Of a stretch of DNA of 13,006 bases, positions 3,758-4,610 are shown in pieces. Numbering within the stretch: position 1 is the stretch's first letter; each line of letters starts with the position of its first letter. This DNA is from Synechococcales cyanobacterium PMM_0073 (GTDB lineage: Bacteria; Cyanobacteriota; Cyanobacteriia; Elainellales; Elainellaceae): positions 1 through 13,006 of the forward strand of contig CASBQH010000269.1 in NCBI GenBank assembly GCA_949127695.1, read 5' to 3'. The notes beneath the pieces are model-generated. The model was not told where the DNA came from, searched no databases, and saw nothing but the letters and a program-made list of their open reading frames with translations. A program made the translations under genes and the position numbers.

Positions 3758-3858
3758 TGGTACTGCTGATAGGAATCGTTCGCGTGGCGTTGCCGTAGGC
3801 AATACCTACAACATCTGGTTTCTAAGACCAGCGCCTCTTCCAGTTGGGCTACAGCAGC
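3758..3858 (-). tRNA. tRNA with UAG anticodon (Leu-like) carrying a 26-nt insert in the T-loop
   Basis: Acceptor GCTGCTG pairs with CAGCAGT, followed by A73 and an encoded CCA at 3758-3760. The D-arm has GCC/GGC stems and a GG in the loop. The anticodon arm is CTGGT-CTTAGAA-ACCAG with TAG at 3822-3824, which would read the Leu codon CUA. The variable loop is short (5 nt, class I), whereas Leu tRNAs normally have a long variable arm, so charging identity is doubtful. The T-stem GTAGG/CCTAT is intact, but its loop is split: T54 is followed by a 26-nt dispersed repeat at 3778-3803, then GATT (positions 57-60). Confidence 0.75.
3778..3803 (+). repeat. Dispersed double-hairpin repeat, copy 1 (in T-loop of UAG tRNA)
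   Basis: This 26-nt element starts with GTTCGCG on the + strand. It has two mini-hairpins, CGC-GTG-GCG and TTGCC-GTA-GGCAA, and ends in T before ACC. It replaces T-loop bases 55-56. The second stem differs from copies 2 and 3 at paired positions but keeps pairing. Confidence 0.9.
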
Positions 3859-3912
3859 AAGAGAAACAGGAGGCTAAAGAATTGACCCAGGCAGGCTTCT
3901 TTATCCCCCCGA
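3859..3912. other. Widest gap inside the tRNA array, possible tRNA relic
   Basis: Other spacers in the array are 1-13 bases; this one is 54. It holds a perfect 7-bp inverted repeat, TAAAGAA at 3875-3881 and TTCTTTA at 3897-3903. On the minus strand it also has a GGGGGG start and a GGGTCAATTC stretch that loosely recalls a T-arm. It may be the remains of a lost tRNA or a processing site; neither is proven. Confidence 0.3.
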
Positions 3913-3983
3913 CTGCCAGAGTAGGATTTGAACCCACATTTCAACGTTCAGAGCGTTGCGACCTGCCATTAGTCGATCTGGCA
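3913..3983 (-). tRNA. tRNA-Gln (anticodon CTG)
   Basis: Acceptor TGCCAGA pairs fully with TCTGGCA, with the U1-A72 pair typical of Gln tRNAs, and G73. D-stem GAC/GTC has GG in the loop. Anticodon arm is CAACG-CTCTGAA-CGTTG with CTG at 3949-3951. T-arm is GTGGG-TTCAAAT-CCTAC. No CCA is encoded. The total is 71 nt and it appears intact. Confidence 0.88.
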
Positions 3984-3991
3984 ATGAATGG

Positions 3992-4064
3992 CTGCCCCAG
4001 TAGGATTTGAACCTACAACTTCGCGGTTAACAGCCGCGCGTTCTGCCAGTTGAACTATGGAGCA
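3992..4064 (-). tRNA. tRNA-Asn (anticodon GTT)
   Basis: Acceptor TGCTCCA pairs with TGGGGCA (one T-G), G73. D-stem GTTC/GAAC, anticodon arm CGCGG-CTGTTAA-CCGCG with GTT at 4029-4031, T-arm GTAGG-TTCAAAT-CCTAC. All arms are canonical; no encoded CCA. Confidence 0.92.
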
Positions 4065-4069
4065 ATGAG

Positions 4070-4142
4070 TGGGAAGTGACAGGATCGAACTGCCATCTCG
4101 CCGGTTTCAGCAGCATGTGAGCACCAGCTTCACTAACTTCCC
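4070..4142 (-). tRNA. tRNA-Phe (anticodon GAA)
   Basis: Acceptor GGGAAGT pairs with ACTTCCC, A73. D-stem GTGA/TCAC with GG in the loop. Anticodon arm TGCTG-CTGAAAC-CGGCG, with two wobble pairs and GAA at 4106-4108. T-arm GGCAG-TTCGATC-CTGTC. No encoded CCA. The anticodon stem is weaker than usual. Confidence 0.88.
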
Positions 4143-4147
4143 ATAAG

Positions 4148-4230
4148 CGGAGAGCAGAGGAATCGAACCCCTAGCCTAAGGACTACCCTGGTTTTCAAGA
4201 CCAGTTGCCGACCATTCAGCGGTGCCCTCC
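4148..4230 (-). tRNA. tRNA-Ser (anticodon TGA), class II
   Basis: Acceptor GGAGGGC pairs with GCTCTCC (one G-T), G73 as expected for Ser. Anticodon arm CTGGT-CTTGAAA-ACCAG with TGA at 4195-4197. A long variable arm between anticodon and T-stem can fold (TAG with CTA, CC with GG). T-arm AGGGG-TTCGATT-CCTCT. No encoded CCA. Confidence 0.9.
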
Positions 4231-4235
4231 ACAAT

Positions 4236-4313
4236 TGGCGAGAACGGAAGGACTTGAACCTTCAATCTCTGGTTTCGTAGACCAATATGTTCATCCATTT
4301 ACACCACGTTCTC
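4236..4313 (-). tRNA. tRNA-Arg (anticodon ACG) with encoded CCA
   Basis: Acceptor GAGAACG pairs perfectly with CGTTCTC, G73, CCA at 4236-4238. Anticodon arm TTGGT-CTACGAA-ACCAG with ACG at 4276-4278; A34 would be read as inosine if edited by TadA. T-arm GAAGG-TTCAAGT-CCTTC. The D-stem GTGT/ACAT is AT-rich with one G-T. Confidence 0.9.
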
Positions 4314-4319
4314 ATTCAG

Positions 4320-4424
4320 CGGAGAGCAGTGGACTTGTTCGCGTAGCGTCTCCGCAGGAGATACCACAATTGTTCATCCAACTGTTTAGCAGACAGTGCC
4401 GATCGCCTGATCGGTTTACTCTCT
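4320..4424 (-). tRNA. tRNA-Ser (anticodon GCT), class II, with a 26-nt T-loop insert
   Basis: Anticodon arm ACTGT-CTGCTAA-ACAGT is perfect, with GCT at 4388-4390. D-stem CCGA/TCGG has GG in the loop. A long variable arm is present, as Ser requires, and G73 fits Ser. The acceptor pairs AGAGAGT with GCTCTCC, with an A-C mismatch at 1-72 and a T-G at 7-66. The T-stem TGTGG/CCACT has a T-T at its base. The T-loop is interrupted by a repeat at 4337-4362 between T54 and AAGT (57-60). No CCA is encoded. Mismatches plus insert suggest relaxed selection, although the anticodon arm is intact. Confidence 0.78.
4337..4362 (+). repeat. Dispersed double-hairpin repeat, copy 2 (in T-loop of tRNA-Ser)
   Basis: This 26-nt element starts with GTTCGCG on the + strand, with mini-hairpins CGC-GTA-GCG and TCTCC-GCA-GGAGA and a final T before ACC. 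It differs from copy 3 at a single loop base. Junctions with the T-loop are the same as in copies 1 and 3. Confidence 0.92.
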
Positions 4425-4429
4425 ATATT

Positions 4430-4480
4430 TGGTGGGTAGAGAGGGACTTGAACCTTGCCATTAAGCTACGCTGCAATGCT
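4430..4480 (-). pseudogene. tRNA remnant lacking an anticodon arm
   Basis: The 3' end is tRNA-like: AAGG-TTCAAGT-CCCT resembles a T-arm, followed by TCTACCC, A73 and an encoded CCA at 4430-4432. On the 5' side GTAGCTTAATGGCAA looks like a D-arm, but it runs straight into the T-arm with no anticodon stem-loop between. The best 5' acceptor candidate, GCGTAGC, pairs with 5 of 7 bases of TCTACCC. It reads as a tRNA with an internal deletion, between tRNA-Cys and tRNA-Ser. Confidence 0.6.
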
Positions 4481-4500
4481 TGGACTCCAGGGTGGGGATT

Positions 4501-4526
4501 GTTCGCGTAGCGTCTCCGTAGGAGAT
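4501..4526 (+). repeat. Dispersed double-hairpin repeat, copy 3 (in T-loop of tRNA-Cys)
   Basis: This 26-nt element starts with GTTCGCG on the + strand, with mini-hairpins CGC-GTA-GCG and TCTCC-GTA-GGAGA and a final T before ACC. It is identical to copy 2 except for one base in the second loop (GTA against GCA). Confidence 0.93.
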
Positions 4527-4560
4527 ACCCACGATTGACTGGTTTTGCAGACCAGCGCCT

Positions 4561-4583
4561 AAGCCTACGGCAGGCTTCGCCAA
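4561..4583 (-). repeat. Related dispersed repeat (in D-loop of tRNA-Cys), opposite orientation
   Basis: On the minus strand it reads TTGGCGAAGCC followed by TGCCGTAGGC and TT. It has two mini-hairpins, GGC-GAA-GCC and GCC-GTA-GGC, so the layout matches the T-loop repeats but the sequence and strand differ. Its CCGTAGG is complementary to CCTACGG of the T-loop insert in the same tRNA. Confidence 0.8.
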
Positions 4584-4610
4584 CCCATTTGGCAGCCTGG
4601 AGATCGTTAG

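Follow-up and report, generated by a model that had tools for sequence, protein, structure and literature searches.

Small dispersed repeats in the T-loops of cyanobacterial tRNA genes: a probable T(T)/C-R target with the T-loop as a hotspot

Transposons of the IS200/IS605 group and the REP/RAYT elements insert beside a short fixed motif and carry terminal hairpins, and their insertion is clean, with no loss of target bases. Introns of tRNA genes and phage integration sites use the T-loop or the anticodon loop, and splicing or the integrase leaves a normal tRNA behind. The small dispersed repeats (SDRs) of cyanobacteria are, according to the accessible part of one account (PMC2884548), sequences of ~20 bp that are possibly mobile. 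The DHE of Allomyces, the GC clusters of yeast and the RHE of sponges are likewise tiny geneless hairpin elements thought to be mobile; the accessible parts of their descriptions add that the sponge elements also enter rRNA genes and that the target-site nucleotides of yeast GC42 are AG (PMC4478555, PMC2800124, PMC5910586). In this work, we analyzed a 13,006-nt stretch of DNA from Synechococcales cyanobacterium PMM_0073 (CASBQH010000269.1, below referred to as the window), which is contig 269 of a 3.6-Mb assembly comprising 529 contigs and 77.75% complete. It bears an array of tRNA genes, three of which carry a 25-nt hairpin insert in the T-loop.

These inserts and their counterparts in related arrays, which we take to be cyanobacterial SDRs, are short (~20–28 nt) geneless sequences present at many places, and orthologous sites were found both filled and empty. 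They resemble the IS200/IS605 and REP/RAYT elements in the short fixed motif that adjoins them and in their hairpins, and differ from IS200/IS605 in that A replaces T55 in 75 of 78 T-loop inserts and in that a search of the host assembly, at its 77.75% completeness, gave 0 matches to a Y1 (HUH) transposase. Unlike tRNA introns and phage integration sites, they have mostly cost the tRNA its U55 and interrupt its gene. The DHE, the GC clusters and the RHE differ in being mitochondrial, and, as far as the accessible parts of their descriptions go, the sponge elements are mostly intergenic and no fixed T-loop site is described. Similarly, neither a T-loop target nor a general T(T)/CR rule appears in the accessible part of the account of SDRs in PMC2884548. 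No description of repeats in tRNA T-loops was found in the literature searched, whose coverage did not extend to the primary SDR work, so that any claim of novelty is limited: within it, the elements would belong to a known class of tiny mobile repeats, and the target and the tRNA hotspot would be newly defined.

T-loop inserts in the window and in related arrays

The presence of the same repeat type at one T-loop junction in three different tRNAs, as put forward in the original prediction, was borne out for the minus strand of the array (Table 1). On the tRNA strand, all three genes read G53-T54-A-hairpin-...-GAA-C56-R57-A58 with a net gain of 24 nt each. The element had been described as 26 nt long and as replacing both T55 and C56; the replacement of U55 stands, whereas C56 is retained in all three genes, because a C precedes R57 in each, and parsing gives an insert of 25 nt. 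The sequence of the first hairpin differs among the copies without loss of pairing (TTGCC/GGCAA for Leu, TCTCC/GGAGA for both Ser and Cys). When the insert was exchanged for TTC, ARAGORN recognized tRNA-Leu(UAG) and tRNA-Ser(GCU), while tRNA-Cys was called only if the D-loop insert was removed as well. A single pattern fits the Ser and Cys copies, with an expected count of 0.00 in shuffled versions of the window, so that these copies are not due to chance. In the host assembly, a generalized pattern (at most one mismatch) matched the three window places and no other, a longer pattern (at most three mismatches) matched only the Ser and Cys copies, and two further insert-type patterns gave 0 matches.

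Table 1. Features of the tRNA array of the window (positions in the 13,006-nt stretch)
Feature	Position	Strand	Basis and remarks
tRNA gene array, 9 ARAGORN tRNAs plus interrupted/degenerate ones	3522..4846	-	ARAGORN, Rfam
tRNA-Leu(UAG), short variable arm, T-loop insert	3761..3858	-	Rfam tRNA, 42.7 bits; TTC-restored form called by ARAGORN
25-nt insert, T-loop of tRNA-Leu	3779..3803	-	strict search, parsing; replaces U55; T54 = 3804
tRNA-Ser(GCU), T-loop insert	4320..4424	-	ends by eye from acceptor pairing; pair 1-72 = A-C; TTC-restored form called by ARAGORN
25-nt insert, T-loop of tRNA-Ser	4338..4362	-	pattern and parsing; absent from strict-search matches; replaces U55; T54 = 4363
tRNA-Cys(GCA), inserts in T-loop and D-loop	4485..4601	-	ends by eye from acceptor pairing; ARAGORN call only with both inserts removed
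25-nt insert, T-loop of tRNA-Cys	4502..4526	-	strict search, parsing; replaces U55; T54 = 4527
Second repeat, ~21 nt, D-loop of tRNA-Cys	4560..4580 (exact ends ambiguous)	-	parsing
HNH endonuclease gene, transcriptionally upstream of the array	5459..5977	-	Pfam HNH

With the HNH endonuclease gene near the array as bait, 242 relatives were found, and the best 80 were taken as named loci. Once duplicates had been removed, the set of arrays comprised 64 array regions in 62 loci, denoted below by L-numbers. Four of these (L020–L023) came through a search with an insert pattern and were counted apart, leaving 58 loci. ARAGORN, a tRNA gene finder, overlooks many array tRNAs; the common T-loop junction was first revealed by a repeat-blind scan of 15 arrays in which every deletion was tried in the gaps between array tRNAs. 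Alignment of the gaps to intact array tRNAs yielded 77 T-loop inserts in 38 of the 62 loci, under 26 isoacceptor labels (71 inserts in 35 of 58 loci without L020–L023); 67 of the 77 start with TA and 73 end with TAC or AAC. The phasing of a few of them is poor (L048 His, L014 His, L083 Ser-GGA), the Ser insert of the window was missed by this alignment and is absent from the 77, and more cases were noticed elsewhere.

The original prediction had proposed to search cyanobacterial arrays for the same junction. A strict search, which demanded five paired T-stem bases, G53, T54, an A before C56, R57, A58 and a hairpin near the insert start, found 79 inserts in array regions vs. none in the array regions of a reversed-sequence control. 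Outside the arrays it gave 7 matches vs. 8 in the reversed control, two of the seven being further T-loops by eye. One match (L058) was out of phase, and among the 78 others, no two of which have the same context, there are 47 distinct inserts and 67 pairings of a T-stem with an insert; with L020–L023 set aside as well, 70 inserts in 34 of 58 loci remain. The insert is 20–28 nt long in 77 of the 78, the last being a nested one of 49 nt, and its first base is A in 75 and T in three (A in 67 of the 70). Since the strict search itself demands the A before C56, the constancy of this base rests on the gap alignment.

Over 194 genomes of the class, some of which repeat those of the named loci, the junction pattern gave 26 matches in 19 genomes vs. 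two for a control pattern. Twenty of the 26 lie in clusters, with six or more tRNAs on the same strand within 1.5 kb, one lies with a single tRNA and five are away from tRNAs; with TTC put in place, ARAGORN called a tRNA from 11. Elements like type A, one of two repeat types considered in the next section, are concentrated in arrays, with 48 in array regions vs. 10 outside, some of the latter by chance, in the 973 kb examined (in a closely similar set, array regions make up 171 kb of 961 kb); part of this contrast in density would reflect purging, because the flanking DNA is presumably mostly coding. Two inserts within one tRNA gene were found in the window Cys, L061 Phe, L067 Phe, L076 Lys and L082 Pro. 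Nostoc sp. PCC 7524 (L009) has several tRNAs with inserts.

Evidence for mobility comes from one tRNA-like array gene that exists both with and without an insert. The empty version, GGG-TT-CAATTCCCC, occurs in seven loci (L068, L070, L071, L072, L075, L076 and L078). Its left flank (54–65 nt) shares 96–98% identity with the one in the filled L006, and its right 21 nt are identical to those of L006 in six of the seven, the value for L078 not being reported. The same gene is filled with one repeat in L006 and with another family in L077, L079, L083 and L191 (L175, L176 and L183 are the same DNA as L079, L083 and L077 and add no further filled sites), and both families start with TA and end with TA before C56. 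Furthermore, the tRNA-Glu(UUC) bodies of L016 and L029 are 100% identical and carry different inserts at one junction. Together, the empty and filled gene and the identical Glu bodies with different inserts therefore indicate repeated insertion at one place. Empty units also adjoin a filled one in the tandem repeats of L121 and L132 (by eye). The proposal that a small dispersed hairpin repeat inserts site-specifically into GGTTCRA is thus strengthened by dozens of further cases, by different families and by the empty site. With a defined target, an empty site beside a filled one, dozens of insertions and a T-loop that is universal, these poorly understood tiny repeats become testable.

The target motif and the excess of inserts in T-loops

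Each insert begins with a small hairpin, some families having a second one (by eye), and a new copy lies directly 5′ of the C in a T(T)C-R or ATC-G motif. In the T-loop, the copy usually starts with A at T55, such that GG-TTC-RA becomes GG-T[A...A]C-RA. These comparisons of sequences suggest that small dispersed repeats of 20–28 nt would be moved by site-specific insertion, that they probably target T(T)/C-R, and that the TTCR of tRNA T-loops would be a hotspot for them rather than the target of an element confined to T-loops.

The rule extends well beyond tRNAs. In 60 genomes of one family, type A and type B repeats were searched by pattern, and copies of type B were found in 31 genomes and those of type A in 23, while control patterns gave 0. 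The contexts of 20 of the 80 type A matches and 50 of the 148 type B matches were sampled, and most of these copies sit away from tRNAs. On the sides left free by the patterns, C plus purine follows type A in 20/20, the base ahead of its preceding T being A in 16, T in three and G in one. For type B, the preceding base is T in 43/50, and the base next to the C is a purine in 49/50. Type B repeats were often seen nested in other repeats at TTCA, such as the inverted repeat GGTAATTCATGAATTACC and tandem repeats (L105–L134, L216–L227).

Sites other than the T-loop are also entered within the arrays. Insertions lie within a resident copy, at its TTCG loop, in L009, L030, L038 and L103, and also in L041 and L028. 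The antisense of the Phe anticodon (TT/CA) was entered by nearly one common insert in six Nostoc arrays and by another in L067, and the Pro anticodon loop was entered at its 5′ edge in L082 and L083 (all by eye). Where inserts are reverse-oriented, it is the opposite strand that shows TT/CA or AT/CG, namely at the Phe anticodon, the Phe T-loop and in Arg (by eye). AT/CG sites were observed, one of them in the context GCGATCGA (L016). SDR5 is described, in the part of the source that was accessible, as inserted within HIP1 (GCG/ATCGC), which with sliding ends may equal this AT/CG target. A fixed target restricted to the T-loop was therefore rejected, since the same short motif hosts inserts at the Phe and Pro anticodon loops, AT/CG sites, TTCG loops and intergenic repeats, and the corresponding part of the original prediction falls. 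It had also named inserts at variable positions as an argument against a fixed target: such positions do exist, though most of the readable ones obey one sequence rule. Two other candidates were dropped. TTCGAA does not serve as the target of the reverse Phe T-loop inserts, because the intact window Phe has TTCGATC and TTCGAA occurs in just 6 of 1256 array T-loops; and a TA duplication, as for IS630/mariner, is not seen, type A inserts lacking TA at both ends.

The T-loop nevertheless carries more inserts than the motif by itself explains. TTCR is present in the T-loop of 1251/1256 array tRNAs, and an insert was found at 79 of 1330 TTCR sites in T-loops vs. 9 of 868 other sites of the same genes (hand tally), a six-fold or so excess (Fisher p 1e-9). 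As nearly every array tRNA has the motif in its T-loop, tRNA genes would offer a standing target; in arrays the inserts would persist, since the genes there are duplicates of housekeeping tRNAs and probably stay silent most of the time, and inserts in sole-copy tRNAs would be purged. It is a realistic, if tentative, possibility that the excess is mainly one of survivorship, that is, that any T(T)/CR site is entered and T-loop inserts, being the least harmful, are kept. The six-fold excess left over by a four-base target is in keeping with this, and nothing was found that separates survival from preference. Both explanations share site-specific insertion, and only the cause of the excess differs.

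Several other observations also weigh against T(T)/C-R as the target. The test was fixed in part, since the search patterns already include the T that precedes type A and the C that follows type B, and C precedes 7/50 of the type B copies. The sampled sites are not independent, because many hosts are themselves repeats, and some are T-loops again: 2/20 type A sites (L214, L215) restore to tRNA-Leu, and among the initial 30 type B sites two (L110, L111) restore to tRNAs. Some insert positions are without an established rule (the V-loop in L102 and L073, positions 7–9 in L076 and L048, and others), and the replacement of T55 by A, with few copies keeping TT, is not explained by simple insertion. 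The Y1 transposase search mentioned above likewise supplied no candidate enzyme. A hairpin loop as a requirement of the target is unsupported: enclosing stems are not in excess at type A sites (p 0.96), the two sites that have one being T-loops, and the excess for type B (26% vs. 7%) is largely due to one host repeat.

Fate of the inserted tRNAs and other origins of the junction

The T-stem had been said to stay paired. This holds for the gene sequence and fails in the predicted RNA: in the minimum-energy fold of each of the three window tRNAs, the insert pairs with the 5′ strand of the T-stem, and the native T-stem is lost (z-scores −2.3, −2.8 and −0.8). Among restored tRNAs the T-stem is fully paired in sequence in 59/69, compared to 1174/1260 intact ones; their median score is 112.5 vs. 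115.0 (p 0.003), and 8/77 remain undetected. The bodies of inserted tRNAs are no more diverged than those of intact ones: the mean difference is −0.002 over 95 pairs with both members inserted (p 0.83), and over 66 inserted tRNAs the mean is −0.014 and the median +0.003 (p 0.80). This comparison covers only tRNAs callable by ARAGORN after restoration, so that the most decayed ones fall outside it, and its pairs are not independent.

It is conceivable, if unlikely, that the inserted tRNAs are functional, the ~25-nt hairpin being tolerated as a bulge from a T-loop that keeps T54, C56, R57 and A58. The undiverged bodies and the T-stems intact in sequence would agree with this; yet recent insertion or the horizontal spread of whole arrays fits undecayed bodies as well as retained function does. 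In addition, U55 is gone in 75/78, the restored tRNAs score slightly lower or escape detection, some genes carry two inserts, the window folds sacrifice the native T-stem to pairing with the insert, and inserts in the Phe anticodon loop block codon reading unless removed. More doubtful still is a working class of tRNAs in stress-induced arrays, with T-loops enlarged by ~25-nt mobile hairpins, whose elbow would tolerate the loss of U55 and a bulged hairpin and whose universal motif would now be a landing site. Under insertion of SDRs at T(T)/C-R, the contact between D-loop and T-loop would be lost or weakened in most inserted tRNAs, which may be inactive or partly tolerated, and the arrays offer a natural experiment on how much of the tRNA elbow can be spared.

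The junction might also have arisen by gene conversion or template switching between T-arms, instead of by targeted insertion. The short motif common to T-loops and the likeness of copies within a genome would suit such an exchange. Conversion limited to the loop, as allowed for in the original prediction, is nevertheless highly improbable, because there are dozens of cases, different families in near-identical tRNAs and an empty site. Moreover, an exchange between T-arms has to reckon with 47 different inserts in 67 T-stem/insert combinations, with T-stems that remain those of the host tRNA, and with the same target outside tRNAs and inside resident copies.

Least credible of all is the removal of the inserts from the transcript in the manner of small introns, e.g., by a nuclease and the RtcB ligase, whose gene transcripts rise in an Anabaena mutant of trcR, the controller of the trn operon, according to the accessible part of PMC10272220: U55 is missing in 75/78, so that simple excision cannot restore UUC (the trait of tRNA introns, a canonical tRNA after removal, is thus absent), no splice structure common to the insert families was seen by eye, and in the genome-wide samples the majority of copies are found away from tRNAs. 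Among the three fates considered at the outset (dead, tolerated or excised), precise excision is accordingly the one disfavored.

Genomic setting and further observations

Rfam gave 39 tRNA matches in the host assembly; housekeeping Ser-GCU and Leu-UAG genes are present outside the array, and no housekeeping Cys-GCA was seen among the 39 matches of this 77.75% complete assembly. Plasmids of Nostoc, Tolypothrix, Calothrix and Kovacikia bear similar arrays: there were matches to 17 plasmid records, including short ones to two from Monoglobus, and 14 records were fetched. In Anabaena PCC 7120, a similar operon of 26 tRNA genes lies on a megaplasmid, is repressed by TrcR and stays silent until translation stress; chloramphenicol activates it, and transcripts of an HNH nuclease gene go up in the trcR mutant together with those of the RtcB ligase gene, as stated in the accessible part of PMC10272220. 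If the arrays studied here behave like this operon, the inserts would be cheap to carry.

The HNH gene is a frequent neighbor of such arrays, with a cluster of at least four tRNAs in 47/80 HNH loci; the other 33/80 have the gene without a cluster of four. Its protein is strongly conserved, the 12 best matches in other genera showing 81–85% identity. As for a link to phages, tblastn of the HNH protein against viral contigs found no relative, and in the phage records listed (20 out of 318) array matches never exceed 7% of the query.

Between the Ser and Cys genes of the window (4426–4484) lies a tRNA-like fragment, with a T-arm and stem pieces recognizable by eye, that has no ARAGORN or Rfam call. 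The array tRNA-Leu genes (that of the window and those of L006–L019) are ~75–78 nt long and have no long class II variable arm, whereas the housekeeping Leu-UAG of the host assembly (L169) has 84 nt. A tRNA-like array gene (L006 3999–4104, minus strand; L075 2393–2479; L070 7378–7464; L016 ~2500–2610, minus strand), missed by ARAGORN in L006, has a normal-looking acceptor and T-arm and, at the place of the anticodon loop, a ~20-nt stem-closed loop, CGAAACCAACAAACGGACG, which differs little or not at all between Leptolyngbya-like and Nostoc arrays. Finally, in degenerate Thr, Val and Leu genes of L007, L012, L013 and L015, a T-arm with ...CTCTTTC or ACCCTTC replaces that with ...GGTTC, and this changed T-arm may be the scar of a partial loss of a T-loop insert.

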